Shown piece after piece: positions 1,855 through 28,143 of a stretch of DNA of 64,000 bases. The notes beneath the pieces were generated by a model. It was not told where the DNA came from, searched no databases, and saw nothing but the letters and a program-made list of their open reading frames with translations. The position numbers were made by a program, and so were the translations under genes. Where the stretch lies: the NCBI RefSeq assembly GCF_015350805.1, contig NZ_JADKSG010000001.1:1054001-1118000 (forward strand), given 5' to 3'. This DNA comes from Herbiconiux sp. VKM Ac-1786 (lineage in GTDB: Bacteria > Actinomycetota > Actinomycetes > Actinomycetales > Microbacteriaceae). The number at the start of each line of letters is the position of its first letter. Position 1 is the first letter of the stretch.

Positions 1855-1868
1855 GGGACTTACGTCCT
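1855..1868. promoter_or_regulatory. Candidate DosR-like box upstream of polymer-forming gene
   Basis: GGGACTTACGTCCT resembles the island box (GGAC/GTCC arms, 11 of 14 positions matching the best copy at 4529). It ends 66 nt before the ATG at 1935, the same spacing as the box before hsp20. It is a weaker match than the others, so membership in the regulon is tentative. Confidence 0.45.
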
Positions 1869-1934
1869 CTCCAGGGTCACTGCGGCCACTCAGACTGTGG
1901 CCACGCCCACCACCTGTCTTGAGAGGCACACCCC

Positions 1935-3059
1935 ATGAGACTCGCACCTGTCCCCCGTCGGATACTCGGCACGACGTTTGCGCTCGGTATCGTCGCCTTC
2001 TCCCTTGCTGGCAGGGCCAGTGCGGCAGGAGCGGCTTCAGCCGCGGATGCGCTGTCCTCCGTCGGCAACGCCGAGGGCCCCCAGTTCTACACGGGGGCGG
2101 TCGTCAATGTCACCGACACGGTCGACGGCGATGTGTACGCAGCCGGACAGAGTGTGACGATCAGCGGTGACGTCACCGGTGATGTGATCGCGGCAGCCCA
2201 GACGATCACGATCACCGGGACGGTCGACGGCAGCGTCCGGCTTGCCGCTCAGAACGTGACGATCAGCGGCGACGTCACCCGAAGCGGAACCGTCTTCGCC
2301 GCAGACATCGCCGTCACACCCACGGGCTCGTTCGGTGACGACGTTGTCGGGAGCGCCGCCACGGCCGCCATCTCCGGTGACATCGGCCGCGACTTGCTGC
2401 TCAGCGTGGATCGACTCGCCATCAGTGGCGCGGTCGGCGGCGACGTGTCGTACACCAGCGACAACGAGGCCCTGATCGACGACGGCGCCGTCACCGGCTC
2501 CGTCGAACGCATCGAGCCGGCCCAGGCACCGGAACCATCCCCCGGGGCCGTCATCGGCGGATGGTTCCTCGGGCTGCTCTACGCACTCGTCGCCCTCAGC
2601 CTCATCACCCTGCTCGCGGGACTCCTTATCCCCCGCTGGCTTCACCAGGTCACGGATCACTTGCTGCCGTCGCCGTGGAAGGCGCTTCTGGTCGGTTTCA
2701 TCGCTTCGATCACCGTTCCCGCCGCGCTGGTGTTCCTGCTGGTCACGATAGTCGGCGCACCACTGGCGCTGGCAGGCATCCTGATCTAGTCCGTGCTCAC
2801 TCTCGCCGCGTTCGTCTACGGCGCCTACTACCTTGGTCGGATCGTGTTCCGGGGCGGGCAGCGTCCGGTTGTGAAGGCCTTGACAGGAGGCGGGATCCTC
2901 ATCGTCGCCTTGAATATCCCCTGGCTGAACATCCTCGTCTGGACGGCCCTGGTCTGTGTCGGCCTCGGTGCGCGGCTGCTCGAGTTCGCCCGGCTGCGCC
3001 CCTGGAGCACGACCTCGCGCATCACCGCATCGGAGGTCCCCGCACATGGTGAGAAGTGA
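1935..3059 (+). pseudogene. Polymer-forming (bactofilin-like) membrane protein, interrupted by in-frame TAG
   Basis: The reading frame codes for a signal peptide, a run of short beta-repeat units (VDGDVYAAGQSVTISGDVTGDV type, like bactofilin/polymer-forming cytoskeletal repeats) and a C-terminal block of transmembrane helices. A TAG at 2787-2789 splits it after residue 284 (LAGILI), and the frame then continues without a shift through SVLTLAAFVYGAYYLGR to a TGA at 3057-3059. A Trp TGG-to-TAG change is the simplest explanation. The first part could still give a truncated protein that lacks the last helices. The full product would be about 374 residues. Confidence 0.8.
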
Positions 3060-3273
3060 GTTCCCCATGGACGACGGCCGTCGGACGGGTTGGTATGACG
3101 ACGGATCGTCGATTAGTGATCGCTGGTGGACAGGGCAGGAGTGGCTGGATCTCTACGCATTCGAGCCACTCTCCGGCCGCCGAGGCAAGCCTCTTCCCGC
3201 GGTCTTCGTGCCTCACGACCTCGTCGTGCGCGCGGACGAACCGGAAGAGATCACGCCCTCTCCGGGCGGATGA
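3046..3273 (+). CDS. Small DUF2510-like protein
   Basis: 75 residues, soluble. The core GWYDDGSSISDRWWTGQEW matches the short DUF2510 pattern (G-W-Y-D ... W-W-G-x-x-W). Its start at 3046 lies inside the end of the polymer-forming gene and follows GGAGG at a spacing of about 8 nt. An alternative ATG at 3067 has a poorer ribosome site. DUF2510 usually sits next to membrane segments, which are lacking here. The function is unknown. Its tail overlaps the 3' end of the convergent flavodoxin gene. Confidence 0.6.
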   Translation: MVRSEFPMDDGRRTGWYDDGSSISDRWWTGQEWLDLYAFEPLSGRRGKPLPAVFVPHDLVVRADEPEEITPSPGG

Positions 3274-3790
3274 GCGTCGTGAGTTCGGTGCCCCAGTGCG
3301 CGGCGCGGCTGCGTTCTCCGGGCTCGAGGCGGTGATTCCCCATCACGGAGAAGCTCACCGGCTTGGCCACCAGGCAGATCTGAAAGCGATGCAACGTCTG
3401 TGCGATGTCATGTCCCGCTGATCCGACGAACAGTCGCGGTCCGCGAATGCGGGTGTCGAAGACCGCCACCTGCGTTCCGGACGGGATCGCTGCTGAATGG
3501 AGCCATTCGCGCATGCCGCTCGAGTCGTTCTCGCCGCGGTCCAGCTGGAGACCGGAGAAGGTGTCGATGGCAAGAAGCGCCGCCTGACCGCGGCTCTCGG
3601 CTGTACTGAGCCCATGGTTGTGAGTCGGAGCACCTAGCACGAGGAGATCCACCGCCGGCAGGGTGGCCGGATCGATGTCGTGTGCGGCGACCACGGTCAC
3701 CTCACCGTAAGGGCCCGCCCCCGTCCCGATCTCGTCCGCGATCGCATGGGTGGCCCCGAACAGTGACTCGAACACGATCAGGATGCGCAT
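3251..3790 (-). CDS. Flavodoxin-like protein
   Basis: 179 residues. It begins MRILIVFESLFGATHAIADEI, a flavodoxin FMN phosphate-binding loop (S-x-x-G-x-T-type), and continues LLVLGAPTHNHGLS, a typical flavodoxin second loop. It is predicted to bind FMN and carry electrons or act as a small quinone/nitro reductase partner in the cytoplasm. The gene lies 70 nt downstream of the BON gene at 4415 and has no box of its own, so co-transcription from the box at 4451 is likely. A paralogue is at 19268-19894. Confidence 0.85.
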   Translation of the reverse strand: MRILIVFESLFGATHAIADEIGTGAGPYGEVTVVAAHDIDPATLPAVDLLVLGAPTHNHGLSTAESRGQAALLAIDTFSGLQLDRGENDSSGMREWLHSAAIPSGTQVAVFDTRIRGPRLFVGSAGHDIAQTLHRFQICLVAKPVSFSVMGNHRLEPGERSRAAHWGTELTTLIRPERA

Positions 3791-3860
3791 GTACAGAATC
3801 TCATCCGGCTGACACGAATCCTCGCGACGCACGGCCGAAGCAACCTGCCGTGTTTCAGCG

Positions 3861-4415
3861 TCATCGGATGGCCGGGCGCGTGAGGGCGAGCCTGTTCTCG
3901 ACGCGGTGGGCCCGACCGCTGCGGTCGGCTAGGTCGCCGACCCTGATGCGGGTGTCGGCGCCGTCCACGCGGCCCGTGAGGATGACGTTGCCGTCACACA
4001 CCTCGATGCCGACCCCATCTGCCGCGCCGCACGCCGTCAGCGCGTCGGCTACGGAGGCCGCGATGCGTGCGTCCGAGGGGTTGCCGGCCCCGGTTCGGAC
4101 CGTGACGTCGTTGGCGACCGCTCTGACCCCGGGCACGTGAAGGGCGGTTCGGGCGGCGGTGTGGCGATGCCAGGAGTACGGCACATGTCCGGTGAGGGTG
4201 ACCACGCCGTCCTGAACGATCACATCGACTGTTTGAGCGTCGACACCTCGGGTGGTTTCGAACTCGGCGATGATCTGGTGCCTGAGTTGCGCATCCGTGG
4301 GTTTCGCATTCCCCTCTTCTATCCGGAACGCTTGCGGGACGGTCGGCGGCAGATCCCGTGCGCGCGGATCCGGCACGGCAACGCGACTCGGGAGCGCAGA
4401 TGGCATGGAGTTCAT
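3861..4415 (-). CDS. Double BON-domain protein
   Basis: 184 residues with a poorly conserved N-terminus of about 35 residues and two BON domains. The first has VIVQDGVVTLTGHVPYSWHR ... VPGVRAVANDVTV, and the second is GIEVCDGNVILTGRVDG ... HRVENRL. BON domains are small alpha/beta modules thought to bind phospholipid or other hydrophobic ligands. No signal peptide or lipobox is seen, so it is predicted to be cytoplasmic, unlike classical OsmY. A DosR-like box ends 35 nt upstream of the ATG. Confidence 0.9.
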   Translation of the reverse strand: MNSMPSALPSRVAVPDPRARDLPPTVPQAFRIEEGNAKPTDAQLRHQIIAEFETTRGVDAQTVDVIVQDGVVTLTGHVPYSWHRHTAARTALHVPGVRAVANDVTVRTGAGNPSDARIAASVADALTACGAADGVGIEVCDGNVILTGRVDGADTRIRVGDLADRSGRAHRVENRLALTRPAIR

Positions 4416-4450
4416 GCTCCCAACCCTCGTCCGGTTCCGGATGAGGGATG

Positions 4451-4464
4451 GGGACCAAAGTCAT
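4451..4464 (-). promoter_or_regulatory. DosR-like box before BON gene
   Basis: GGGACCAAAGTCAT. It has a perfect GGGAC left arm and a GTC right arm, and 35 nt separate it from the ATG at 4415. Confidence 0.75.
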
Positions 4465-4528
4465 TCGGCTGAGGCCTGCACTGTGCTGCACCCGACGTGC
4501 ACTCGCGCTCATGCTCCGGCGGTCGGGT

Positions 4529-4542
4529 GGGACTTTGGTCCC
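4529..4542 (+). promoter_or_regulatory. DosR-like box, best match to consensus
   Basis: GGGACTTTGGTCCC, with perfect GGGAC/GTCCC arms. It lies between the leftward BON gene and the rightward DosS-like pseudogene at 4721, 178 nt before that start. With the box at 4451 it forms a pair 78 bp apart (start to start). It may have driven the now decayed kinase gene or may add to the BON promoter. Confidence 0.75.
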
Positions 4543-4639
4543 ATGTCCACGCCGGGTCGCCGATACTGTCGCAGTCACGGGCTGGTCCCGGAGGCCGCAG
4601 AGACTCAGGGACGGCCCGTCCCGACTGTCGCACGGCTGA

Positions 4640-4683
4640 TGCGACGAGGCGGTCCGACCCCAACAAGGGATCGCCTCGTCGCA
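4640..4683 (+). terminator. 12-bp perfect stem-loop in leader of DosS-like pseudogene
   Basis: TGCGACGAGGCG at 4640-4651 pairs perfectly with CGCCTCGTCGCA at 4672-4683 around a 20-nt loop. No U-tract follows. It lies between the box at 4529 and the ATG at 4721, where it could act as an attenuator or terminator in the leader of that gene. Confidence 0.45.
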
Positions 4684-4720
4684 TGTTGGGTTGCTACCCC
4701 CAGACACTGGGAGGTGAGCA

Positions 4721-5471
4721 ATGGACGCTCTGGGACTTGGATCTCTGAAGAAGTTCGACGGGAGCTCGCGACCGCCGTCGATGTGCTCGACGACCGAGCC
4801 CGGAAGCTTTTCGCGTCCGACTATCGTCACCACCACCGGTCTCGTCGTCGTGGCCCTCACCGCCGGCTCAGCTCCTGTCACCTCACTCGACGTGTCGGCG
4901 GTCGTCGAGTTCATGGAACGCTCCTCCCTCGCACTCGCACTACTGCACGCACGACAGGAACAGCAGCGCAGCACGACCGCCGTGGACCACGCCCGAATGG
5001 CCCGCGACCTCCACGACCATGTCATCAAGCAGCTGCTCAACCGGCATCGGCATTCAGGCATTCGCAGCGACGCTTGCCGAACCGCGCGACGAGGTCACGT
5101 CCTTCATCGATGAGATCGATGCGGTGATCGCCGGCATTCGTGCAGCTGCGTTCACCCTCACCCGACCGACGCAGGCTGCTGTCAGTGTGCGGCATCGCCT
5201 CGTCGACATGCTCACCGAGCTCGAAGACACCCTCCCAATGCACCCAACGATTCACTTCTCCGGGCCGGTCGATCTGTTCCTCATCGACGAGTTGGCCGAC
5301 GACGTCCTCGCCGTCGTCCCGGAGACCCTGGCGAACATCAGCCCGCACGCCCGCGCCGAAGCAGTCGTCATCGATGTGACAGTGGCACAGCGCCGCGGAG
5401 GTTCCTACCTACTGGAATCGCGCCCACCGCACGGCACCCACGCCCGTGGGCAGGTTCCCCTGGAACGGTGA
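4721..5471 (+). pseudogene. Degenerate DosS-like histidine kinase
   Basis: A good ribosome site (GGGAGGTGAG) precedes the ATG at 4721. The first frame gives a remnant of the second GAF domain (GLVVVALTAG ... LALALLHARQEQQ) and the phospho-His helix MARDLHDHVIKQLL, after which it runs out of register. The frame starting before 5019 carries on with GIGIQAFAATLAEPRDEV ... IAGIRAAAFTL, which aligns with the intact kinase at 23867-25591. The tail has lost the ATP-binding N and G boxes through an internal deletion after ANISPHARAEAVVIDVTV. The GAF-A haem domain is absent. It is a dead paralogue of the island sensor. Confidence 0.8.
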
Positions 5472-5543
5472 TGCCGACACCCGTTCACCGGCCCCGGGTG
5501 TATTCCGGAGGGTGCTCTGACGGTCGTGATCCACGCGACGGTG

Positions 5544-5804
5544 TTAATCAGCGCCACCGGGAGTTGATCCGGTGGGTGCCGAGCGCGATACCCTCCTGAA
5601 GAGGGTGATGCGGTTGTCGACCCAGCTGACGCCCTTGATCTGACGCACCTGATTCTCCGCAGCACGACGTTGCCCGTCACACGCCACGCTGCCCATGAGG
5701 ATCACGCTCCCGTGGCTGACGGGAGCGTCGACAGTGCCGTCGCGCAGGCCGGCCGTCCATCGCGGGGCATGCTGGATGGCGTCGGCGACATCGGTGTCAC
5801 TCAC
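5544..5804 (-). CDS. Single BON-domain protein, probably a fragment
   Basis: 86 residues covering one BON domain (APVSHGSVILMGSVACDGQRRAAENQVRQ ... VSWVDNRITL). It aligns with the middle domain of the triple-BON proteins elsewhere in the island (for example WVDNRITLAPR in 17606-18298). Its length and the decayed neighbourhood suggest a leftover of a larger BON gene, though it could still be translated. No box lies close to its start; the nearest candidates are 280 and 474 nt upstream. Confidence 0.55.
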   Translation of the reverse strand: MSDTDVADAIQHAPRWTAGLRDGTVDAPVSHGSVILMGSVACDGQRRAAENQVRQIKGVSWVDNRITLFRRVSRSAPTGSTPGGAD

Positions 5805-6316
5805 CGGCGTCCCACTCGTTTCAGCGACCGAAGCCTACCGCGAGCTCCCGCACCGACGGGATGAGGGAATCACCACCCAGAAGGCGACACGACACGGTCT
5901 GAAGTCTCACGACCAGTCCTGCCCTGGAGCCCTCGCGGACTCAGATCGGGCCAATAGGTGGCCGGGCCCTCCCGGCCGAAGGGGAGAGCCGCAGCCACCG
6001 ACCGCCACCACGCCGTTGTGGTGGACCACCGCGCCCCGCTGATCGCCCTTTCCGTGACCCCATTTCCGGCAACCGCATGCTGTGGGACAAGAGCCCCCGA
6101 GTATGGTTCGAGGGGGTACCCCCGTCGGGATACCGCGTCTGTCACATCAGCCATTCGTTGCGGTCCATGCGACTTGTCAATCGCAACGTGCGATCCTCAG
6201 GATGCGACTCCTAGACCCTTGACGCTGTCCGGGTGCGACCCGTGACCAGAACACTACGGCGACGGCAATCGTGGCGAAGGACCAAAGTCCCTTGGCTGTG
6301 TCTGCCGTCAAGGCTC
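5805..6316. other. 512-nt stretch without a convincing gene
   Basis: Short ORFs exist on both strands, but none shows a recognisable domain. It contains a weak box-like sequence (GGGACAAGAGCCCC, 6084-6097) and a strong box at 6278-6291 with no obvious gene behind it. It may be a lost gene or an RNA gene. Confidence 0.5.
6278..6291. promoter_or_regulatory. DosR-like box without an obvious target gene
   Basis: AGGACCAAAGTCCC, with arms GGAC/GTCC and flanks that extend the symmetry (AAGG ... CCTT). It lies just past the 3' end of the leftward membrane-protein gene at 6317-6517. The next leftward gene starts at 5804 and the next rightward gene at 6675. Confidence 0.65.
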
Positions 6317-6517
6317 TCAGACGCTGAGTGCCAGCAGCACGTGGTAGATCACGTATGCCGGCCACACTACGGCCTGCAGCAGCCCCAGGATGACTCCCCA
6401 GAACGAACCGTCGGACGTGGAGATGAAGTACACCGCGGCGCCTATGTAGGCGAGGAGGAAGACGAACCCCCATGGGCCATCCCGTACGACCACTCCTGCT
6501 CGTTCACTACGACCCAT
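6317..6517 (-). CDS. Small two-helix membrane protein
   Basis: 66 residues with two hydrophobic helices (FVFLLAYIGAAVYFI and FWGVILGLLQAVVWPAYVIYHVLLAL). The ATG at 6517 is preferred over the GTG at 6526 because AGAAGGAG lies about 8 nt upstream of it. It diverges from the USP gene and shares the intergenic box at 6610. The function is unknown; proteins of this shape recur in stress islands. Confidence 0.75.
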   Translation of the reverse strand: MGRSERAGVVVRDGPWGFVFLLAYIGAAVYFISTSDGSFWGVILGLLQAVVWPAYVIYHVLLALSV

Positions 6518-6609
6518 GACCCTCACTCCTTCTGCCTGTGTTTCCCGGTCGCCTCATCCGACCGCAGCTTCGGGCATGGACAAGAGCCGAAGGTCCTTCC
6601 TGTTGCGAA

Positions 6610-6623
6610 TGGACCTTTGACCC
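6610..6623. promoter_or_regulatory. DosR-like box between small membrane protein and USP
   Basis: TGGACCTTTGACCC (complement GGGTCAAAGGTCCA). It lies 51 nt before the ATG at 6675 and 92 nt before the divergent ATG at 6517. A poorer half-match (AAGGTCCTT) sits about 20 nt to its left and might be a second site. Confidence 0.65.
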
Positions 6624-6674
6624 TACGTAGCCCGGTGCGAAAGCGGAATGCTGAGGCCGATCTTGGAGGATTGC

Positions 6675-7586
6675 ATGACAGTGAGAACAGTGGTCGCTTG
6701 GGACGACTCGGTGGAGAGCCGAACCGCTGTCGCGTGGGCGATCGAACGGGCTCGCCACACCGCGGCGGGCCATGAGGTCGTGCTGGTGCGCGTGATCGAT
6801 GAGGTCAGCTTCATCCCGGGCAAGACCATCACCCCCGAGGATTTCCATGCTGCCTCGACGGCCGTGGCCGCGGAAGCGGCCCGGATCGCCCGGGAGCTGC
6901 CCGCCGCACGGATGTCCAGCCAGGTGGTGATCGGCGACACGCTCAACGCGTTGCGGCGATACACCGATCCCGCCTCCCTGCTCGTGGTCGGCACCGAGGC
7001 ACGGACCTATGCGCACTTCCGATTCGCCTGGTCGATCGGTGCGCGTCTCGCCGCCACCGCTCTCGGCCCGGTCGCGATCATCCCCCGGCACGTCACCGGG
7101 ACTCGCTCCGGCGTCGTCGTCGGCGTCGACGGCTCCGAGACCTCGACACGCGCCGCCCTGTTCGCGGCAGGTGAGGCCGCGCTACGGGGCGTGGAGTTGC
7201 ACATCATCCATGTCTGGCTGGTGCCCCCGGTCTGGCAGGCCGACTACGTCTACGACGACCTCACCCTGGACATGCTCGGCGAAGAACACGAGTCGATCGT
7301 CCACGACGCGGCGGAACTGGTGAGACGCGCCCGCCCCGAACTGGTGGTGAAAGCTGAGGCGGTTCGTGGGACGACCGTGCGGGCGCTGCTCGACGCGTCG
7401 CCCTTGCCGCAGCTCGTGGTTGTGGGCTGCCGCAGCCGGAGCGCGGTGAACCGGTTCGTGCTCGGTTCCGCGAGTCACGAACTGATCCTGAACCTCGACG
7501 TGCCCGTCGTGATCGTCAGTGACCGGGTGCGCGAGGCGGCCACCGCCGTCGGCTGGCAGCGCACATACGAACCGATCGGAGGATGA
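6675..7586 (+). CDS. Universal stress protein, two USP domains
   Basis: 303 residues. It starts MTVRTVVAWDDS after GGAGGA. The N-terminal USP domain (1-140) ends GPVAIIPRHV. The C-terminal domain opens GVVVGVDGSETS and carries the ATP-binding GxxxxG(S)-type end (VVVGCRSRSAVNRFVLGSASHELI). Tandem USPs bind ATP or similar ligands and are hallmark members of DosR regulons. It is cytoplasmic and sits behind the box at 6610. Confidence 0.95.
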   Translation: MTVRTVVAWDDSVESRTAVAWAIERARHTAAGHEVVLVRVIDEVSFIPGKTITPEDFHAASTAVAAEAARIARELPAARMSSQVVIGDTLNALRRYTDPASLLVVGTEARTYAHFRFAWSIGARLAATALGPVAIIPRHVTGTRSGVVVGVDGSETSTRAALFAAGEAALRGVELHIIHVWLVPPVWQADYVYDDLTLDMLGEEHESIVHDAAELVRRARPELVVKAEAVRGTTVRALLDASPLPQLVVVGCRSRSAVNRFVLGSASHELILNLDVPVVIVSDRVREAATAVGWQRTYEPIGG

Positions 7587-7600
7587 TCCCGTGACCCCCC

Positions 7601-7696
7601 ATTGATGCCATCAAGACGGGCTTCGCGAACTACGCCATCTTCACGGGCAGGGCAACGCGCGGCAACCGCCTCGCCTCTTCCTACCCCACCATCTGA
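7601..7696 (+). pseudogene. DUF805 membrane protein fragment
   Basis: An in-frame stretch reads DAIKTGFANYAIFTGRATR and then stops. This is the characteristic N-terminal motif of DUF805 membrane proteins (AI-x-F-x-x-Y-x-x-F-x-GRA-x-R); the transmembrane part that should follow is missing. It is a short remnant between the USP and GyrI-like genes. Confidence 0.5.
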
Positions 7697-7708
7697 CCCC
7701 GGAGAACC

Positions 7709-8212
7709 ATGACGTCGACCCATGAAGTGACCATGCCGGAGACTACGGTGGCCGGCACTCGTTCTACCGTCTCTCTCGCGGACTTGCCGACGTTCTTCGC
7801 ATCCGCCTTTCAGCGTGCCCTGGGCGGCCTCACGCGCGCGGGGACGTTGCCGATCGGACCTCCGATCACGATCTACTTCCGGTCCTGCGCGGGTGGAATC
7901 GATCTCCTCGCCGGTTTCCCCGTGACGAAGTCACCGAGCGCTGAAGCCGCATTGACCTCCGTCACCGTGCCAGCGGGCCAGGCTGTCACGGCGGTGCACA
8001 AGGGTGGGTACGGCTCCCCCGGTAGCACCTACGCAGAAATCAGCGAATGGATGCACGCGCGGGAACTCGGCGAACCGGGAATCATGACCGAGCAATACCT
8101 GGTCGGCCCAGCTGACGACGCCGACTCATCAGCGTGGCGGACGCTCATCACGTACTACTTGGAACGCGCCACCCACCCGTCCCCTGTCGACTCGACAGGG
8201 GACGCGCCGTGA
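7709..8212 (+). CDS. GyrI-like small-molecule-binding protein
   Basis: 167 residues resembling the GyrI/AraC effector-binding fold: an IGPPITIYF strand, a middle LLAGFPVTKSPS, then VTVPAGQAVTAVHKGGYGSPGSTYAEI, and a final MTEQYLVGP acidic tail. Such stand-alone domains bind hydrophobic small molecules or act as hydrolases. The start at 7709 follows GGAGAACC. It lies 42 nt upstream of the DUF1345 gene, and the two may be co-transcribed. No DosR-like box is close. Confidence 0.8.
   Translation: MTSTHEVTMPETTVAGTRSTVSLADLPTFFASAFQRALGGLTRAGTLPIGPPITIYFRSCAGGIDLLAGFPVTKSPSAEAALTSVTVPAGQAVTAVHKGGYGSPGSTYAEISEWMHARELGEPGIMTEQYLVGPADDADSSAWRTLITYYLERATHPSPVDSTGDAP
8179..8203. repeat. 25-bp perfect palindrome at end of GyrI-like gene
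   Basis: GTCCCCTGTCGA at 8179-8190 is mirrored by TCGACAGGGGAC at 8192-8203 around one central base. It covers the last codons of the upstream gene. It may be a terminator stem without a U-tract or a protein-binding site. Confidence 0.6.
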
Positions 8213-8254
8213 AAGCGTTCGCCGACAACGGAGGTGAGCGGGCTCTGACGCATC

Positions 8255-8944
8255 ATGAAATCTGAGACAGATCATCGCACCGCGAGACACCGTCCCGAGC
8301 AGGGATTCGACGGCATCTGGCATCACGCCGGATTCCGTGTCGCTGTCATGTTCGTGGTGTTCGTGCTTTTGGGGTGGACGGTCGGGATGTCGGGGTCGTG
8401 GCTGCTGGCGCCCGCTCTCGGCTGGATCGGGGCCGCAATGACCTTCGTCATCTGGGTGCGGGTGTCCGTGCTTCGGCTCGGTTCCGCCGACACCGCCATG
8501 CACGCCACGCGCGAGGATCCGACTCAGCCGGTCGCGCAGACGCTCATCATCCTCGCCAGTCTCGCCAGTTTCGGGTCCCTCGCGCTGCTGCTTACCGAGT
8601 CGCGGGCCGCGGGAGGTATCGCCCAATTCGGGCTCGCTGCTGCCGCCGTGGCCACGGTGGCCACCTCCTGGATACTGGTCCAGGTGCTGTTCACGCTGCG
8701 ATACGCAGCGCTGTATTACCGCTCGGGCGGTAAGGGAGTCGACTTCAACCAGGAGGACAGGCCCCGCTACCTCGACTTCGCCTATCTTGCGTTCACGATC
8801 GGTATGACCTATCAGGTCTCCGACACCCCCCTGACGAGTTCAGTGCTGCGTCGGGAAGTCCTGCGTCATGCCCTGCTGTCGTTCTTATTCGGTGTCGGTG
8901 TTCTCGCATCCGCTGTGAATCTCGTTGCCAGCCTCGCCCGCTGA
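8255..8944 (+). CDS. DUF1345 membrane protein
   Basis: 229 residues with four to five transmembrane helices and the DUF1345 signatures (FTLRYAALYY; DFAYLAFTIGMTYQVSDT). It is an integral inner-membrane protein of unknown role, often found near stress or potassium-related genes. Its 3' end overlaps the convergent NUDIX gene by 60 nt. Confidence 0.88.
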   Translation: MKSETDHRTARHRPEQGFDGIWHHAGFRVAVMFVVFVLLGWTVGMSGSWLLAPALGWIGAAMTFVIWVRVSVLRLGSADTAMHATREDPTQPVAQTLIILASLASFGSLALLLTESRAAGGIAQFGLAAAAVATVATSWILVQVLFTLRYAALYYRSGGKGVDFNQEDRPRYLDFAYLAFTIGMTYQVSDTPLTSSVLRREVLRHALLSFLFGVGVLASAVNLVASLAR

Positions 8945-9424: not shown

Positions 9425-9459
9425 CCCTCGACCTTCCCGGCCGGCGTGGTCCGACCTAT

Positions 9460-21161: not shown

Positions 21162-21195
21162 AACCCGATCCTGCGTCCCGGTACACCGGCACACA

Positions 21196-21209
21196 GTGAC
21201 TAAGGTCCA
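21196..21209 (-). promoter_or_regulatory. DosR-like box before BON operon
   Basis: GTGACTAAGGTCCA, 34 nt from the ATG at 21161. It forms a pair with the box at 21249, 53 bp away, for divergent transcription. Confidence 0.7.
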
Positions 21210-21248
21210 TCGAGACCAGACCGCTCACTTCGGCAGGAGAAAGTCATG

Positions 21249-21262
21249 GGACCTTGGTCAGT
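21249..21262 (+). promoter_or_regulatory. DosR-like box before rightward operon
   Basis: GGGACCTTGGTCAG, nearly identical to the hsp20 box. It ends 58 nt before the ATG at 21321. Confidence 0.75.
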
Positions 21263-21320
21263 TCTTGCGGCGTAGCGAGGCAAGACGCTGTGGGAAACGA
21301 ACCCGACAGAAGGGGAAGCG

Positions 21321-21884
21321 ATGACGTCTTCGGCTCTGCTCACTCTCGAGCTCGACAATGCGCGAATCGCTGACGCCTTTCGGGGCATCGCCGAAGCCGC
21401 ACCTGGTACTGCTAGTGGAACGGTTGACTACGTTCCCGGTGGTGCGGTCATCGAGGCCCGTGCGCCATTGGGCACAATCGCGATAATGTGCGCTCCCGAT
21501 GCCCTCTCTGAGGACGTGGCGGTCAACATCGCCGCGGCGCTTGCTGCGGGAAACCGGGTCGCGGTCGGGCTCATCGACGCGCCTGACAGGGTGTTGACCA
21601 GCGTGCTCGCGACGCTCACGGGCGGTCTCGACCACGATGAGTTCTGGATTCTCGGCAGCGACCGGCGTAGCTGGCAGCAGCTCGGATTCGGCTACGTGAT
21701 CGTCGCGATCTCCTCCGCCGGGGTGCGCGTCGGCGAGAGCCCCCGGCAGCCTCATCTCCGCACGGCACCGCTTGACCTTATCCGCCGTTATACCCGTGTG
21801 CACCGCTTCGGAGTCAGCATCGACACGTGCGTCGTCAGCCGCCTGCCCGCGACTGAGCACTCGACGAAGGGAACCCGCTCATGA
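21321..21884 (+). CDS. Protein of unknown function with weak aldehyde-dehydrogenase likeness
   Basis: 187 residues. The segment RAPLGTIAIMCAPDALSEDVAVNIAAALAAGNRVAVGL recalls the aldehyde dehydrogenase N-terminal Rossmann core (P-L-G-V-V ... ALAAGN-x-V-x-L), but the catalytic Cys/Glu half is absent. It may be a shortened dehydrogenase-derived protein or an unrelated fold. First gene of a three-gene operon with a USP and a membrane protein (ATGA overlaps). Confidence 0.6.
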   Translation: MTSSALLTLELDNARIADAFRGIAEAAPGTASGTVDYVPGGAVIEARAPLGTIAIMCAPDALSEDVAVNIAAALAAGNRVAVGLIDAPDRVLTSVLATLTGGLDHDEFWILGSDRRSWQQLGFGYVIVAISSAGVRVGESPRQPHLRTAPLDLIRRYTRVHRFGVSIDTCVVSRLPATEHSTKGTRS

Positions 21885-22780
21885 CCATCCGAACGATCAT
21901 CGCCGTTGACGAAGGCCCGGCAGGGGACGCCGCTCTCGCCTGGGCTACACGTCGCGCCCAGTGGGTCAAAGACCCGCTGCTGCTCGTCCATGTCGTCGAC
22001 GAGAGCACCTTGGTCCCCGGCAAGGTCCTCGACCCGGCCCGATTCGGACGCGCCGGAGCGCTCCTCGACGCAGCGGCCGAGCAGCTGCGGGGCACCGTGC
22101 CCGGCATCGATGTGCGCACTGAAGTCATTTCGGGGGACGTGGTGCCGTCGCTGATCGCCCTGACTGCTGCAGACGCGCTCCTGGTCATCGGCGAGAACAC
22201 CCGAGGATCCGTCCGCTCGTCAATCGGCTGGTCCGCCGGAGTGCGGGTGGCGGCGCATGCGACCGGGCCGGTGGCCGTTGTCCCTGCCGAGGTGACCGAG
22301 GACCGCCGCGGGGTCGTGGTCGGTGTCGACGACACCGACCAGTGCCTGGACGTGGCCGAGATCGCCGCTTTGGAGGCGCTGGCGACCGGTCAGCCCCTGC
22401 AGGTCGTGCATGCGTGGATGGCGCCGAACATGTGGCTCGACACGTTCCCTCTTGACGAGGAATTCATGGCGTTCCTCGCCGAGCCTCACCAGCGGTTGCT
22501 CGACGACATCGTCGGCGTGCTCCGCGGCCGCCACCCATCACTCGATGTCACCGGCCGCGCCGTTCATGGCATTCCCGCGCAGTGCATCCTCGATGCAGAT
22601 CCCCTTCCCGCCCTCGTCGTGGTCGGAACCCGCGGGAAGTCACTGTTCCAACGGCTGCGCCTCGGATCCGTGAGCCGCGATCTGCTCCTCAACCTCGACG
22701 TGCCCGCCATCGTCGTTCCCACCGCGACCGTCATCACCACGCGCGAGTCCGCCGCAGACACAGCAAGGGCTGGATCATGA
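21881..22780 (+). CDS. Universal stress protein, two USP domains
   Basis: 299 residues. Domain 1 starts MTIRTIIAVDEGPAGDAAL; domain 2 starts GVVVGVDDTDQCLDVAE and ends VVVGTRGKSLFQRLRLGSVSRDLL with the ATP-binding motif. It overlaps the genes on both sides by ATGA. Confidence 0.94.
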   Translation: MTIRTIIAVDEGPAGDAALAWATRRAQWVKDPLLLVHVVDESTLVPGKVLDPARFGRAGALLDAAAEQLRGTVPGIDVRTEVISGDVVPSLIALTAADALLVIGENTRGSVRSSIGWSAGVRVAAHATGPVAVVPAEVTEDRRGVVVGVDDTDQCLDVAEIAALEALATGQPLQVVHAWMAPNMWLDTFPLDEEFMAFLAEPHQRLLDDIVGVLRGRHPSLDVTGRAVHGIPAQCILDADPLPALVVVGTRGKSLFQRLRLGSVSRDLLLNLDVPAIVVPTATVITTRESAADTARAGS

Positions 22781-23232
22781 TCCCGTCGCGATGGAACCGG
22801 GCCCTCACCGGGCTGCTGCTCGGCCTCGTCGGCATCACCGCTGCCGCTGGAGGTGCCGCCCTGGTCGCCGGCGAGATCACCGGCGATCCGAACGGCCTGT
22901 TCGTCCCCGACTCGTCGTACCTCGAAGGCACCCCGTTCGCCTCGTACGTGGTGCCGGGGCTTCTGCTGGCGATCGTCGTCGGCGGTGTTCAGCTCGCCGC
23001 GCTGGCCGTGCTGGTGCGCAGGCCGGCGCTCGCCCCGGCGGCGACGTCGATGGCCGCGTACACGATCCTGATCTGGATCTTCGTGCAGATGATCATCATC
23101 CCCTTCAGCCCACTCCAGCTCGCCTACTTCCTCGCCGGCCTCGCCGAACTCGGCCTCGTCATCGTCGCCGCCGGGGTGCTGACGGCAGAGAATCCGAGGG
23201 TCGACGTGCGTTCACGGGTGGATGCTCGCTGA
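22777..23232 (+). CDS. Four-helix membrane protein
   Basis: 151 residues with four hydrophobic helices (ALTGLLLGLVGITAAAGGAALVAG; YVVPGLLLAIVVGGVQLAALAVLV; AYTILIWIFVQMIIIPF; LAYFLAGLAELGLVIVAAGVL). Last gene of the operon under the box at 21249. It is convergent with the regulator gene, 2 nt apart. Function unknown. Confidence 0.8.
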   Translation: MIPSRWNRALTGLLLGLVGITAAAGGAALVAGEITGDPNGLFVPDSSYLEGTPFASYVVPGLLLAIVVGGVQLAALAVLVRRPALAPAATSMAAYTILIWIFVQMIIIPFSPLQLAYFLAGLAELGLVIVAAGVLTAENPRVDVRSRVDAR

Positions 23233-23234
23233 GC

Positions 23235-23870
23235 TCACAGCTCGTCGCGGTGGGCCGACCCGAGCACGGCGGCCTGGGTGCGGCGTTCCAGACCGAGCTT
23301 CCGCAGCATGTTGGAGGCGTAGTTCTTCACGGTCTTCTCCTTCAGACCCAGCCGCTCCCCGATCTGCCGATTGGTCAGGCCGTCGGTGATCAGTCCGAGG
23401 ATCTGACGCTCACGGATGTTGAGGGACCCGAATCGGGGGTCGTCGCGCGATTCCGACCGCACCCTCTCTGAGACTTTCTTCGCCGCAGCGGGGTGCAGAA
23501 GTGAGCGGCCTGCGGCAACTGCGGTGATGGCTTCGACCAGACTGGGGCCGCGGACGTCCTTGAGGAGGTAGCCGGAGGCGCCGGCGATGACTGCCGCGAC
23601 CACGGCGTCGTCGTCGTCGTAGGCGGTCAGGATGACGCAGCGGATGCCGTCCATCCTCGACCGAAGTTCCCGGCAGAGGTCGATGCCGTTACCGTCTGGC
23701 AGGCGCATGTCCAACACCGCGACGTCCGGCCGGGTCGCCGTGATGCGCGCCAGTCCCTGTGCCACTGTTCCGGCCTCGGCTACCACCTCGATGCCGGCGG
23801 TTGCTTCGAGGAGGTCGGCGACACCTCGTCGCACGATCTCATGGTCATCGACCAGTGCCACCCGGATCAT
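23235..23870 (-). CDS. DosR/DevR-like NarL-family response regulator
   Basis: 211 residues. The receiver domain has acidic residues at VDDHE, phospho-Asp54 in LDMRLPDG (same number as mycobacterial DosR) and Lys in YLLKDV. The LuxR-type HTH ends LTNRQIGERLGLKEKTVKNYASNMLRKLGLERRTQAAV. The KTVKNY recognition helix keeps the Lys/Lys/Asn that contact DNA in DosR. It is the predicted activator of the boxes in this island. Its start overlaps the sensor stop by ATGA. Confidence 0.93.
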   Translation of the reverse strand: MIRVALVDDHEIVRRGVADLLEATAGIEVVAEAGTVAQGLARITATRPDVAVLDMRLPDGNGIDLCRELRSRMDGIRCVILTAYDDDDAVVAAVIAGASGYLLKDVRGPSLVEAITAVAAGRSLLHPAAAKKVSERVRSESRDDPRFGSLNIRERQILGLITDGLTNRQIGERLGLKEKTVKNYASNMLRKLGLERRTQAAVLGSAHRDEL

Positions 23871-25591
23871 CCGTGTCCGCCTTCGCTGTCCGGAATGGGG
23901 ATATGCCACTCGACGCGGGTGCCGTTGGCGGAGGAGGTGACAAACATCGTGCCGCCGAGCGCCACAGCACGTGCCGTCAAGTTCGACAAACCGCTGCGCC
24001 GCACTCCGCCTGGGATGCCGATACCGTCGTCACCGACATCGACGCGGATGTCCTTGTCGTCGACGGCGAGAGTGACATCGGTTTCAGTGGCCCCGGAGTG
24101 CTTGACGATGTTGCTCAGCAGCTCCCGGGCCACGGCGGTCACCTCGTCGGCGAGCACACCCGTGACGAACAGGTCGACGGGGCCGGAAAAGCTGACGTTG
24201 ACGGGGTTGGGCAGAGCCTTGGACGCATCGGCGGCGATGTCGAGGATGCGGTGCCTCACCGACGCGGATCTGCTGTCAGCAGGCGGGGTGAGGGCAAAGA
24301 CGATCTTCCGAATCTGAGCGATCACCCTGTCGATCCTGGTCACCGCTTCATCCAACCGGGCGCGGTCCTTGTCGGGGAGGATCGGCGCGAGGCTCTGCAA
24401 CTCCAACCCGGTGCCGAAGAGGTCTTGGATGACGTGGTCATGCAGGTCCCGCGCGATCCGCCCGCGGTCCTCGAGAACGGTCACCCGTTGCTGGTCTGCT
24501 CTGGCCCGCGCGAGGGCGAGGGCGACACTGATCCGCTCCCCCAGGTCGATGCCGACCTCCAGGTCGGTTCGAGTGAAGCTGGGCCGGCCGGGAAGGCGTG
24601 CCGCGATCAGCACCCCCCACACCGTCCTGCCATCCGTCAAAGCGATGCAGATCGTCGGGCCCGCCACCTGTCCCCGGGTGAGGGAAAGCGGGTCGCTGGG
24701 TCGGGCGGGACCGATGTGCCCCGGGGCGGCGATCAGCGATTCTCCCGACGCGAGCACGTCGGTGGCGAGCGTGGTCGCCGAGGGCAGGTCGGCACCGTCC
24801 AGGGCGGCGGACCCCTCCCCGCGCGCGGCGGCGACGTGGACCGTGCCGGGTTCGTGACCGGGCACGAGGATGGTGAGCAGTTCGGAGTCGGAGCGGCTGA
24901 TGAGTTCATCGGCGAGTGTGGCATACGCCCGCTGCGCGTCGCTGTCTGCGAGTGCGATCGCGATCTCCGCCGACGAGGTCATCCACCGCTCCCTGGTTCG
25001 GGCTTCGACGAGGATGCGGGCGTGGTCGATGGCGGAGCCGGCCGTCGCAGCCAGTGCACCGACCAGCTGCTCATCCTCGTCAGAGAAGGAGCCGCGGCGC
25101 GGATTGGTGAGGTACAGGTTGCCATACACCACCCCGCGCACCCGGATGGGAACTCCGAGAAAGCCATCCATCTTCGGGTGGCCGTCCGGGAACCCCGACG
25201 ATCGCGGATCGGCCGAGATGTGCTCGAGCCGGATCGGCTGCGGAGTCACGATTACGGCGCCGAGAAGACCATGCCCTTCCGGTAGGTGCCCGATCCGGCC
25301 AACCGCTCCATCGTCCATGCCGACGTGGATGAACGCCTCCAGGCCATGCCCGTCTGCGGAGATGACGCCCAGTGCCCCGTACTCCGCATCGACGAGTTCG
25401 ACGGCGGCTTCGACGATGCGACGCAGCACCATGCTGAGATCAATGTCCTCGACCACCGCTTGGGTTGCTCGGAGCAGCGCCCGCAGCCGGCTCTGGGACA
25501 GTTTCACGTCGTTGGCGCGGGCGATCAGCTCTTCGATGGAGCGGTCCAGTTCGGATCGCGGTAGATCGGGGAATGAGAGCGGATCGGTCAT
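23867..25591 (-). CDS. DosS-like haem-GAF sensor histidine kinase
   Basis: 574 residues: GAF-A about 45-195, GAF-B about 210-365, a HisKA_3 helix with phospho-His384 (RDLHDHVIQ), and HATPase with DDGIGIP and GLSNLTARA. His138 (GFPDGHPKM) and Tyr160 (GNLY), 22 residues apart, align by context with the haem-ligand His149 and distal Tyr171 of M. tuberculosis DosS. It should be an oxygen, NO or redox sensor in the cytoplasm. It is coupled by ATGA to its regulator. The box at 25676 lies 84 nt upstream, allowing autoregulation. Confidence 0.94.
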   Translation of the reverse strand: MTDPLSFPDLPRSELDRSIEELIARANDVKLSQSRLRALLRATQAVVEDIDLSMVLRRIVEAAVELVDAEYGALGVISADGHGLEAFIHVGMDDGAVGRIGHLPEGHGLLGAVIVTPQPIRLEHISADPRSSGFPDGHPKMDGFLGVPIRVRGVVYGNLYLTNPRRGSFSDEDEQLVGALAATAGSAIDHARILVEARTRERWMTSSAEIAIALADSDAQRAYATLADELISRSDSELLTILVPGHEPGTVHVAAARGEGSAALDGADLPSATTLATDVLASGESLIAAPGHIGPARPSDPLSLTRGQVAGPTICIALTDGRTVWGVLIAARLPGRPSFTRTDLEVGIDLGERISVALALARARADQQRVTVLEDRGRIARDLHDHVIQDLFGTGLELQSLAPILPDKDRARLDEAVTRIDRVIAQIRKIVFALTPPADSRSASVRHRILDIAADASKALPNPVNVSFSGPVDLFVTGVLADEVTAVARELLSNIVKHSGATETDVTLAVDDKDIRVDVGDDGIGIPGGVRRSGLSNLTARAVALGGTMFVTSSANGTRVEWHIPIPDSEGGHG

Positions 25592-25675
25592 GGCGCCTCC
25601 AGCGGCCTCAGCGCGAAAGTACCACGTCGGCGCCGCGGTCACTACCGCACGTCTCGTCGCCCCGTCAGGCATCGA

Positions 25676-25689
25676 TGGACCAAAGCCCC
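25676..25689. promoter_or_regulatory. DosR-like box between sensor kinase and DUF1003 gene
   Basis: TGGACCAAAGCCCC. It lies 35 nt before the DUF1003 ATG (25725) and 84 nt before the kinase ATG (25591). Confidence 0.7.
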
Positions 25690-25724
25690 GCGAATCGGGC
25701 ATCCGTCGCGCGAGACTCGGACCC

Positions 25725-26177
25725 ATGAGACGACCTCTGACCAACTGGCACGCCCAGGCGCAAGAGAAGCTGACGCCCGGTGAACGAGCCGCAGACCGTC
25801 TGCGGAACGGGATGGGCAGCTCGCCCTTCGTCAGCGCCTTCATCGCGGCGATGCTGATCTGGTTCGTGCTGAACTCGCTCGACAGCGCCTGGGACCCGTA
25901 CCCGTTCATCCTCCTCAACCTGTTCCTCAGCATGCTCGCGGGTCTGCAAGGTGCCATCCTGCTCATCGCAGCGAAACGTCAGGACACGATCGCGGCCGCG
26001 CTCGCCCGCCACGACTTCGAGACCAACGTGGCCGCGAAACAGGAGATCGAGGAGCTGATGGCAATCAACCGCGCACAGCTCGCCCTGCTCGGCGAACTGA
26101 GCGCGAACCGCGCCGCGGACAGGGACGGTCAGGTTGCGCTGCCGCCGTTCCCCTCGGCGGCTTCGCTCAGCCGCTGA
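25725..26177 (+). CDS. DUF1003 membrane protein
   Basis: 150 residues with the DUF1003 signature: two helices (FVSAFIAAMLIWFVLNSL; FILLNLFLSMLAGLQGAILLIA), a Gln/Lys-rich loop (AKRQDTIAAALARHDFETN) and a coiled C-terminus (KQEIEELMAINRAQLALL). Inner-membrane protein of unknown function. The box at 25676 is at the standard 35-nt distance. Confidence 0.87.
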   Translation: MRRPLTNWHAQAQEKLTPGERAADRLRNGMGSSPFVSAFIAAMLIWFVLNSLDSAWDPYPFILLNLFLSMLAGLQGAILLIAAKRQDTIAAALARHDFETNVAAKQEIEELMAINRAQLALLGELSANRAADRDGQVALPPFPSAASLSR

Positions 26178-26179
26178 TC

Positions 26180-27214
26180 TCACGGAACGACGACGGCGCG
26201 ACCACGGATGTCGCCCTCGTGAAGCCGCCGATACGCCTCAGCAGCGTCTTCGAGAGAGAACCGCTCCACGTGCACACGCACTGCGCCCGACCGGGCGAGG
26301 TCAAGCACCTCCAGCAATTCAGACCGACTTCCCCAATACGGTGCCCGAACCAAGGCGCCGAACGGAGTCGAGAAGAACCCCGTCGGGAGTGTGGCGCCAC
26401 CGATGCCCACGATCTGCACGTCACCATCGATTGCGACGACATCGCGCGCCAGCTGCAGCGTGCCGGCCGCTCCCACGAAATCGAACACCGCCTCCGCACC
26501 GACACCGGCCGTCAGCTCCCTGATCCGGGTGGCCGCATCCGGTCCCGAATGCACCGTCCAGTGTGCACCCACCTCGGTTGCGAGGGCGAGCTTGTCGTCG
26601 TCGATGTCGACAGCCACGATCGTCGCGGGGGTGATGGCTCGGAGGATCTGAACCGCAACGTGGCCGAGCCCCCCGACACCGATAACGACAGCGGTGGAAC
26701 CGGGCCAGAGCTTGCCCTGACTCGACCGGATCGCGTGATAGGGCGTGAGGCCCGCATCGGTCAGCGAGACGCTGTCGACAGGGTCCAGCCCGTTTAGCGG
26801 CACCAGGTGGCGTGTGTCGTCGACGATCATGTACTCGGCCATCGCACCAGGTGCGCCGAGGCCGGGCGGGGCGATCCCGAGGGCGGCCGCGTTCGGGCAG
26901 TAATCCTCTCGCCCCTGCGCGCAGGCATGGCATCGGCCACACCCCCACGGCCCGTACACTGCCACCGCGTCCTCGACACTCACCCCGGTCGCGCCGACAC
27001 CGAGCTTGTCGACGATCCCGGCGGCTTCGTGCCCGAGCGTCAGAGGAAGCCCGTAGACGTACTGCTCGGCCGGCAGTCCCATCAGGAACCAGTCGGAATG
27101 ACACAGGCCGGCCGCCGTGACCTTCAGCCTGACCTCGCCCGGGCCGGGCTCGGGCGTCTCCACTTCCACCAGCTCCGGGGCGGCACCGATCGTGCGGTAC
27201 TGAAGCGCCCTCAT
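26180..27214 (-). CDS. Zinc-dependent alcohol dehydrogenase
   Basis: 344 residues. It has AAGLCHSDWFLMG ... LGHEAAGIVDKLG (catalytic zinc), CGRCHACAQGREDYC (structural zinc) and VIGVGGLGHVAVQIL (NAD-binding GxGGxG). A complete medium-chain alcohol dehydrogenase. It overlaps the USP stop by one base (TGATG), giving a usp-adh operon. The pairing of USP and Zn-ADH repeats that at 10043-11895. Confidence 0.94.
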   Translation of the reverse strand: MRALQYRTIGAAPELVEVETPEPGPGEVRLKVTAAGLCHSDWFLMGLPAEQYVYGLPLTLGHEAAGIVDKLGVGATGVSVEDAVAVYGPWGCGRCHACAQGREDYCPNAAALGIAPPGLGAPGAMAEYMIVDDTRHLVPLNGLDPVDSVSLTDAGLTPYHAIRSSQGKLWPGSTAVVIGVGGLGHVAVQILRAITPATIVAVDIDDDKLALATEVGAHWTVHSGPDAATRIRELTAGVGAEAVFDFVGAAGTLQLARDVVAIDGDVQIVGIGGATLPTGFFSTPFGALVRAPYWGSRSELLEVLDLARSGAVRVHVERFSLEDAAEAYRRLHEGDIRGRAVVVP

Positions 27215-27738
27215 CAGCGTGCCCCTTCGCTCTGCTTCGCGGCATGCTCGTCAGCCTTGGTCTCCGCATGCGGGTGCACGATCAGCACCGAGCATTTCGC
27301 GTGAGCTGCGAGTTGCGCGCTCACCGAGCCGAGCAACAGGCCGGCGAAACCTCCATGCCCGCGGCTCCCGGTCACGACGAGATCCGCCGTCTCGCTTTGA
27401 TCGATCAGTACCCGGGCGGCTGACCCCTCCACGATCGACAGGTGCACACGATCGGGCTTCTTCTCGCCGAAGACGGCATCCGCCACATGACGCACCGTCC
27501 GGGCCGCGTCCCGATCGGGGTACCAGTCCGGGGGAACCATCGTGTACCGCGAGATCGGATACGTCCACACACAGACGGCATCAAGCTGCGCATCGAAGGC
27601 ATCGGCGATACGGCCGGCCTTGCGTAGGGCGTGGATCGACGATTCCGAACCGTCGACACCGACGACGACACGGGAGAATTCTCCGAAGCTCGACCCGGCG
27701 GATTCGGGGTAAAAGAAGTTAGCTTCTGAGTCACTCAT
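27214..27738 (-). CDS. Universal stress protein, single domain
   Basis: 174 residues: FSRVVVGVDGSESSIHALRKAG, then VVTGSRGHGGFAGLLLGSVSAQLAAHA (ATP-binding G-2x-G-9x-G-S) and a His-containing tail. The start MSDSEANFF at 27738 has a box ending 34 nt upstream. Translationally coupled to the downstream dehydrogenase. Confidence 0.94.
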   Translation of the reverse strand: MSDSEANFFYPESAGSSFGEFSRVVVGVDGSESSIHALRKAGRIADAFDAQLDAVCVWTYPISRYTMVPPDWYPDRDAARTVRHVADAVFGEKKPDRVHLSIVEGSAARVLIDQSETADLVVTGSRGHGGFAGLLLGSVSAQLAAHAKCSVLIVHPHAETKADEHAAKQSEGAR

Positions 27739-27753
27739 ACGGACAGCCTTGCC

Positions 27754-28143
27754 ATGGTGCCCAATGGATGCGTGGACCAAAGTCCCACACCAAGCAGAAG
27801 CCCGGAAGAACGGCTGAAGTCTCCCCGCCCGGCCCGCCTGCGCTCCTTCAATCGGTTCGGGCTATGGCAGACTGCCGTCAACCGCTCGACAACCGTGATC
27901 CTGGCGCTCGCCTTCACGCTGGTTGGCGTCGCCTCCGCCACCGCGGTATCGGTCGTGCTCACCGGCGCCGGCTGCAGCCGACGCCTCCCGGCTGGGCTCC
28001 TTCGCGACGGGTCAGGCACTGGAACTGCAGGCATGCTGATGACCGTCACGGTCATCTTGGCCACCAGCGGGGTGCTGATCGTAGTGATGCGCCGCCTCCT
28101 CGACCTGCTCTCGCACGAGACAGACGGAGTCTCCAATAGGTAA
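27754..28143 (+). CDS. Small membrane protein at right end of island
   Basis: Up to 129 residues with two hydrophobic helices (VILALAFTLVGVASATAVSVVL; LMTVTVILATSGVLIVVM). The start is uncertain: the box at 27773 falls inside the first codons if the ATG at 27754 is used, and no good start follows. It may be a degraded gene or one read from a non-box promoter. Confidence 0.45.
   Translation: MVPNGCVDQSPTPSRSPEERLKSPRPARLRSFNRFGLWQTAVNRSTTVILALAFTLVGVASATAVSVVLTGAGCSRRLPAGLLRDGSGTGTAGMLMTVTVILATSGVLIVVMRRLLDLLSHETDGVSNR
27773..27786 (-). promoter_or_regulatory. DosR-like box before usp-adh operon
   Basis: TGGACCAAAGTCCC, with flanks that extend the symmetry to GTGG ... CCAC. It is 34 nt from the USP ATG. 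It is the rightmost box. Confidence 0.78.

Follow-up and report, generated by a model that had tools for sequence, protein, structure and literature searches.

The region analysed here (the window) is a stretch of 64,000 nucleotides of Herbiconiux sp. VKM Ac-1786 (Actinomycetota, Microbacteriaceae), representing positions 1054001-1118000 of contig 1 of a 3.89 Mb genome. Its left part (window positions 1855 to 28143) holds an island of ca. 26 kb (0.7% of the genome), in which the genes of a DosR/DosS-like two-component pair are located together with universal stress protein (USP), Hsp20, BON, pyridoxamine-oxidase-like (PNPOx), flavodoxin, NUDIX, zinc alcohol dehydrogenase (ADH) and P-type ATPase genes. 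All of these families, listed in an earlier note made from the letters alone, were confirmed by Pfam. The intergenic DNA of the island carries 14-bp palindromic boxes of the type GGGAC-N4-GTCCC, and the island is very probably a DosR-type dormancy or hypoxia regulon packed into one block. Genes were predicted with our own small codon-usage script, which is error-prone, and then checked against Pfam; the operons of the island were inferred from gene spacing. No Rfam families or tRNAs were found in the window.

The regulator pair

The best of 226 PDB matches of the regulator was Mycobacterium tuberculosis DevR (3c3w, 236 bits), followed by VraR (135 bits), and 115 of 204 residues (56%) were identical to those of DevR. 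The shared residues include Asp8, Asp9, Asp54, Thr82, Lys104, Lys179, Lys182, Asn183 and Thr198, with Thr205 replaced by Ser; in DevR the positions compared presumably serve in phosphorylation and DNA contact. With DevR as its closest match, and with Asp54, Lys179, Lys182 and Asn183 kept, the predicted NarL-type protein can be assigned to the DosR/DevR type. It is the only close copy found in the genome, the next paralogue being 41% identical.

The first GAF domain of the kinase (GAF-A) gave the heme domains of DosT (2vzw) and DevS GAF-A as top PDB matches (E-values from 9e-41 to 3e-38), with 76 of 148 residues identical to DevS. In the alignment, His138 and Tyr160 of the kinase fall on positions 92 and 114 of the DevS chain, which we take to be the proximal heme ligand His149 and Tyr171. 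Two GAF domains, HisKA_3 and HATPase domains, and the proximal His in GAF-A would make the predicted protein a kinase of the DosS/DosT type. The kinase gene comes first and overlaps the regulator gene by four bases. The nearest named relatives of the kinase are from a Microbacteriaceae bacterium and a Herbiconiux metagenome-assembled genome (79% each). Among the matches listed, neither the regulator nor the kinase of the window had an NCBIfam match above cut-off. The DosR/DosS-like character given to the pair in the earlier note is supported, as judged by comparison with the solved M. tuberculosis structures and by the residues kept.

Relatives of dosS (E-value ≤1e-60) were present in 93 of 299 genomes of the family and in 10 of 16 genomes of the genus, including that of the window. 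A second dosS locus lies elsewhere in three congeners (G307 C1:3587848, G288 C1:1756579, G155 C25:60061), each with at least one box of ≤2 mismatches nearby. Within the island, the remnant of a second DosS-like kinase (4721-5471, +), consisting of an H-box region and a frame-broken C-terminal part, follows box 4529, the one box in the genome without a mismatch. To the right of the island, at 32726-34602, the gene caller had wrongly set a long frame on the opposite strand; a response regulator frame with 35% identity to DosR is located there beside a histidine kinase, as a second two-component pair in the variable stretch described below.

Boxes in the window and in the genome

A position weight matrix (PWM) was built from 137 boxes of 80 named loci of relatives and of the window, the window's own boxes included. 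Its ranks 1-13 in the window were exactly thirteen of the fourteen boxes listed in the earlier note, which had counted thirteen good boxes and one candidate. The member that fell out was 18779..18792, with 1.0 bits and rank 81, and it was rejected as a box. It had 9/14 identical bases in the congeners G305 and G307, 2/14 in G304 and 3/14 in G192, and is situated inside the probable operon for which box 19294 would be the promoter. The box that had been called weak was instead that at 1855, which ranked fifth and was fully identical in the nearest congener (G305). All fourteen listed sequences were present, the one given at 21249 starting at 21248. With a second matrix of 122 sites from other genera only, the top eight sites all belonged to the earlier list, as did 11 of its 14 boxes among the 16 sites listed, with five further sites (four of them coding) interspersed at ranks 9-16.

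The stricter pattern searches pointed the same way. Allowing ≤2 mismatches, the pattern of the earlier note gave 11 intergenic sites in the window, when letter-permuted arms gave a median of 0 and never more than 2. The core GGGACTWWAGTCCC, which we take to be the mycobacterial one, gave ten window sites with ≤3 mismatches, all in the island and nine of them intergenic; with ≤4 mismatches the contrast within the window was weaker (24 sites inside the island and 12 outside it). In a blind palindrome search over 13,312 combinations (1024 arms with 13 spacings), frames of GGGAC-N4-GTCCC came top for enrichment in intergenic DNA of the island, and by raw count GGGAC-N4 was fifth, after GC-rich arms that are common everywhere.

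Genome-wide, 13 of 30 sites with ≤2 mismatches were in the island, one of which (22004) is located within a USP gene and is probably a chance occurrence. All four sites with ≤1 mismatch were in the island and none elsewhere, unlike in mycobacteria and streptomycetes. The 17 sites outside comprised 14 coding sites, according to our own gene calls, and three intergenic ones, a single one of which was no more than 120 bases from a gene start. The predicted DosR-type boxes appear to precede their putative targets beyond chance. That they lie almost all in front of genes was borne out for 12 of 13, the exception being 6278, which faces a decayed BON gene only.

Conservation in relatives

In G305, box bases were identical at 128 of 140 positions against 563 of 1030 flank bases (Fisher 1.7e-19). 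This alignment covered nine promoters and ten of the fourteen listed boxes, including 18779; 4451, 4529, 6278 and 9460 were left out. The corresponding counts were 78/112 against 402/798 in G307 and 55/70 against 229/450 in G155. Boxes 21196 and 21248 jointly had 26/28 bases kept in G305, 24/28 in G155, 19/28 in G304, 17/28 in G192 and 13/28 in G307.

In 20 other genomes of the family (40 pieces of DNA near dosS) 52 intergenic sites were found, against a median of 4 with permuted arms, and in the 80 named loci there were 133 against a median of 7; the two sets share some genomes. The likeness to the mycobacterial DosR motif proposed earlier holds, the box being of mycobacterial type and enriched near dosS across the family. 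Compactness as a rule of the family was not upheld: the ten dosS-bearing genomes of the genus had 27 sites with ≤1 mismatch, of which only 12 were within 25 kb of a dosS match, and box sites elsewhere also occurred in several other genomes of the family, among the matches listed.

Place of the boxes in the predicted promoters

The arrangement was studied with 137 intergenic boxes from the window and the named loci (211 orientations, 61 loci). There were 25 cases of the hexamer TANNNT starting at a distance of 29, 30 or 31 bases from the centre of the box, against an average of 1.4 for three other offsets. Among the 63 boxes with one facing gene (five of them from the window), NANNNT was found at 29-31 bases towards the gene in 45 and away from it in five, and other sets of three offsets on the gene side averaged 4.3 and reached at most 11. 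In the window, a -10-like hexamer was at 29-31 bases in 12 of 17 hand-listed box-gene pairs, and two more pairs had TANNNT one base nearer; the promoters of 18779 and 19294 had no such hexamer at the usual place. On the assumption that the hexamer represents the -10 element (-12 to -7), the centre of the box falls at about -41.5 to -43.5, so that the predicted box would overlap the -35 region, as judged from the -10-like element. Weaker second sites were commoner just upstream, with 41 within 14-69 bases against ca. 4.5 expected, in a count that may include a pair twice, once from each member. For M. tuberculosis, PMC3029386 describes an overlap of the proximal DevR site with -35 and a close packing of sites; both the box position near -42, relative to the -10-like element, and the extra upstream sites fit this mycobacterial arrangement.

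Genes and predicted targets of the island

The features are collected in Table 1. From the left, the units fronted by a box are the bactofilin-like gene; BON and flavodoxin; the decayed DosS-like kinase; the decayed BON gene; a USP; and NUDIX with the Hsp20-USP-ADH operon. In the middle follow DUF2269; BON with the beta-CASP/P1B-ATPase operon; the PNPOx-PNPOx-BON-BON operon; and the BON/unassigned/flavodoxin operon. The right part comprises a USP operon, dosS-dosR with DUF1003, and the USP-ADH operon. The genes at 7709-8944 (GyrI-like, DUF1345) have no box of their own.

Box 4529 is 159 bases from the BON gene 3861-4376 (-), with the kinase remnant on its other side. Box 19294 extends into the 3′-end of the upstream gene and is the probable promoter site of the PNPOx-PNPOx-BON-BON operon. 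Box 25676 may mediate autoregulation of the predicted dosS-dosR operon.

Table 1. Features of the island and its surroundings in window coordinates; conservation is given as identical box bases in congeners.
Feature	Position	Strand	Basis or remark
Bactofilin-like membrane protein gene	1935		Box 1855
Two-domain universal stress protein	6675..7586	+	PF00582
Hsp20 small heat-shock protein	9540..10040	+	PF00011
Universal stress protein	10043..10885	+	PF00582
Zinc alcohol dehydrogenase family	10882..11895	+	TIGR02822 above cut-off
Triple-BON protein	12926..13609	-	PF04972, 3 stretches
Beta-CASP metallo-beta-lactamase ribonuclease-like protein	13746..15119	+	PF10996, PF07521
P1B heavy-metal P-type ATPase	15116..16963	+	TIGR01525, TIGR01512 above cut-offs
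Two triple-BON proteins	16920..18298	-	Pfam
Two pyridoxamine-oxidase-like proteins	18295..19236	-	PF12900
Flavodoxin, unassigned protein, triple-BON protein (operon)	19268..21161	-	Pfam
Two-domain universal stress protein	21881..22780	+	PF00582
DosR-like response regulator, receiver and LuxR helix-turn-helix	23235..23870	-	Pfam, PDB search
DosS-like sensor histidine kinase, GAF-GAF-HisKA_3-HATPase_c, heme-type GAF-A	23867..25591	-	Pfam, PDB search
Zinc alcohol dehydrogenase and universal stress protein	26180..27738	-	Pfam
Stretch absent from the corresponding place in dosS-less congener G011	1728..48173		Flanking genes adjacent
DosR-type box before bactofilin-like gene 1935	1855..1868		PWM rank 5; 14/14 in G305
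DosR-type box before BON gene 3861-4376 (-)	4451..4464		PWM; promoter outside orthologue alignment
Perfect DosR-type box before decayed DosS-like kinase remnant (~4721-5471, +)	4529..4542		0 mismatches, PWM rank 1
DosR-type box facing decayed BON gene (~5604-5801, -)	6278..6291		1 mismatch; BON match
DosR-type box between small membrane gene 6317-6493 (-) and USP 6675 (+)	6610..6623		3 mismatches, PWM rank 10; 13/14 in G305
DosR-type box between NUDIX (-) and Hsp20 operon (+)	9460..9473		TACAGT -10-like element; PWM; outside orthologue alignment
DosR-type box before DUF2269 gene (-)	12422..12435		14/14 in G305 and G307, 6/14 in G304
DosR-type box between BON (-) and beta-CASP/P-type ATPase operon (+)	13673..13686		12/14 in G305 and G192, 3/14 in G307, 5/14 in G304
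DosR-type box before PNPOx-like 18814-19236 (-)	19294..19307		1 mismatch; 12-13/14 kept in 5/5 relatives tested
DosR-type box before BON gene 20475-21161 (-)	21196..21209		PWM
DosR-type box before open reading frame 21321 and USP 21881 (+)	21248..21261		PWM
DosR-type box between dosS-dosR (-) and DUF1003 gene (+)	25676..25689		14/14 in G305, 13/14 in G307
DosR-type box before USP-ADH operon 27738-26180 (-)	27773..27786		13/14 in four relatives, 6/14 in the fifth (G192)

All 15 genomic BON matches were in the island, as were 7 of 12 USP matches, three of the other five being in open frames of 864-1040 residues. USP and Hsp20 are among the predicted targets; in the 13 regions of relatives compared, the gene calls did not include the Hsp20 gene. 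The beta-CASP protein matched a type VII CRISPR model far under its cut-off (345 of 800 bits), and a CRISPR-related role was rejected.

Some genes are shortened or decayed. The USP at 12552-12860 covers the C-terminal half of the Pfam model only and has no box of its own, and the BON match at 5604-5801 (-) is in a short leftover frame, the decayed gene facing box 6278. In G305 (L166-L167 joined, 18586-19068) and G307 (L168-L169 joined, 22140-22625) an extra BON-like gene, absent from the window, is located between the PNPOx genes; it encodes ca. 160 residues with 34-36% identity to the BON protein of the window at 12926.

Presence, absence and variation of the block

In G011, which has no dosS match at E-value ≤1e-60, the genes corresponding to 507-1727 and 48174-49391 are neighbours, 11 bases apart, and 46.4 kb including the 26-kb island is absent from this place, to which the search was limited. 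G011 therefore has an empty site of the kind expected for a mobile genomic island, compatible with gain here as well as with loss in G011. Terminal repeats of the 46.4-kb stretch were not detected, the longest end-to-end match being 9 bases against a chance mean of 9.2, and the stretch likewise has no integrase of its own at an end, so that these marks of a mobile island are missing. A serine resolvase (28288-28872) is located directly to the right of the island, within the stretch missing from G011 and not at an end. At 36001-44000 of the window GC is ca. 62%, against 65-74% elsewhere, and SDR, ADH, hydrolase, MarR and WYL genes are found there; the origin of this part is perhaps other than that of the island.

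Both the place and the content of the block vary. The island of G305 spans 17 kb with ten intergenic boxes, on a contig different from that of the left-flank genes and, by eye, adjoined by transport-like genes. In G304 and G155 the island and the left-flank kinase are on separate contigs, and the gene that follows this kinase is an unrelated one in all five congeners compared. The island of G307 is 12 kb long, and three genes situated 5-8 kb to its right are diverged relatives of left-flank genes of the window (71%, 67% and 44%); in G155 an 81% copy of the DUF2269 gene of the island lies ca. 5 kb from the copy of the left-flank kinase. A portable regulon, whose sensor, regulator and sites would be passed on, disappear and change place as a single unit with nearly all of the targets, is a tentative and rather doubtful reading, made slightly less probable by the left-flank relatives near the G307 island and by the DUF2269 copy near the G155 kinase.

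Proposed regulation and its alternatives

By analogy with M. tuberculosis we infer heme binding, phosphotransfer, DNA binding, an oxygen signal, activation and a role in survival for the system. DosS would hold heme in its first GAF domain and become activated by falling oxygen or by binding of NO or CO, autophosphorylate, and pass the phosphate to Asp54 of DosR. The phosphorylated DosR dimer would then bind the 14-bp palindromes near -42, overlapping -35, at about a dozen promoters and recruit RNA polymerase. Its own operon and the Hsp20, USP, BON, flavin/redox, alcohol dehydrogenase and metal-efflux genes of the island would thereby be raised.

Several observations weigh against a DosR regulon of this kind. 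Loose counting over the whole window (≤3 mismatches) gave 27 sites against 20.7 expected, a number reached in 6 of 100 shuffles, and was set aside as uninformative. The whole-genome total of 30 sites compares with 68 for a control with the pattern written backwards, and at ≤1 mismatch the 16 genomes of the genus had 31 box sites against 85 for this control; since the total does not exceed the control, only the placement of the boxes is special. Conservation of box bases was weak in G192 (55/98 against 313/682 in flanks, p 0.04) and without excess in G304 (62/112 against 419/798). The dosS promoter of the window lacks a -10-like element at the expected distance, its box is not conserved in G304 and G155 (5/14 each) or G192 (4/14), and 49 of the 78 relatives with upstream DNA have no box before dosS. 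Finally, nitrate reductases and other respiratory enzymes were absent from the Pfam assignments in the island.

The alternative that survives best is a DosR-type regulon tuned to redox state, NO/CO, metal or stationary phase instead of oxygen shortage, which we consider possible, if somewhat unlikely. Several gases are bound by GAF domains of the DevS type, which can also serve in redox sensing, and the island includes a P1B metal ATPase. The proximal His and the Tyr of oxygen or redox sensors are kept in the kinase, though they are compatible with several gases. In Streptomyces, OsdR has a role in stress and development (PMC5069765).

It is very improbable that the boxes belong to another NarL-family regulator, with DosRS merely located among them. 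The genome does hold six further DosR matches (E-value ≤1e-20), four of them full-length at 35-41% identity. Against this, 29 of 78 named loci (the 80 less two without upstream DNA) have a box no more than 300 bases ahead of dosS, when permuted arms gave at most 4; the six dosS-less congeners had four sites with ≤1 mismatch in all, far from the 27 of the dosS-bearing genomes with their partial grouping near dosS; and the DNA-contact residues of the regulator are those of DevR. Least credible of all is box clustering through duplication of promoter-gene units without active regulation, for which the five USP and six BON genes, some decayed, could speak, when the boxes are better conserved than their surroundings in G305, G307 and G155 and also precede unrelated genes (Hsp20, DUF2269, DUF1003, bactofilin-like).

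Relation to known regulons and implications

The mycobacterial DosR regulon is scattered in the genome, and in this respect the DosR-type regulon proposed here differs, with all sites of ≤1 mismatch in one 26-kb block; further differences are the prominence of BON genes and the kinase gene preceding the regulator gene. The similarities to M. tuberculosis DosR/DevR-DosS/DosT are the close regulator with the same contact residues, the heme-type GAF kinase, the GGGAC-N4-GTCCC box, and USP and Hsp20 among the targets, which are predicted ones here. Six of the ten M. tuberculosis USPs are said to belong to the DosR regulon (PMC2914252).

For Streptomyces coelicolor OsdR/OsdK, PMC5069765 describes a core regulon clustered at the regulator and rich in USPs (8 of 11 in the region there), with a site before the regulator gene and an alcohol dehydrogenase; these traits recur in the predicted regulon of Herbiconiux. 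In S. coelicolor, 20 of 22 genes are under the control of eight OsdR sites close to osdR. The same source reports 43 predicted sites with 27 transcription units in all, several at other places of the genome, and in vitro binding of OsdR to mycobacterial DevR targets. Its OsdR box is AGGGCCGATCGGCCCT-like, and the OsdR regulon has nitrate reductase genes and effects on development, unlike what is seen here. As the OsdR core is clustered, a clustered DosR core was already known; the compactness stressed in the earlier note is real in this genome, yet not unprecedented (PMC5069765). New here are the Microbacteriaceae version with a mycobacterial-type box, the concentration in one block, and the promoter geometry across relatives. 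Work on DosR in Microbacteriaceae was not recognised by title or start of abstract among the papers listed in a literature search that had most subscription journals outside its reach.

DosR has been studied mostly in mycobacteria, and here a near-complete regulon appears within 26 kb in another actinobacterial family. The island would be a natural minimal version, the sufficiency of which could be tested by removing one block. Its content suggests a core programme of USP, BON, PNPOx, flavodoxin and metal ATPase apart from pathogenesis, and the box model and promoter rule can be used for annotating such regulons in Microbacteriaceae. If the portable reading were true, a complete oxygen-shortage programme could be gained or dropped by these bacteria in one step.

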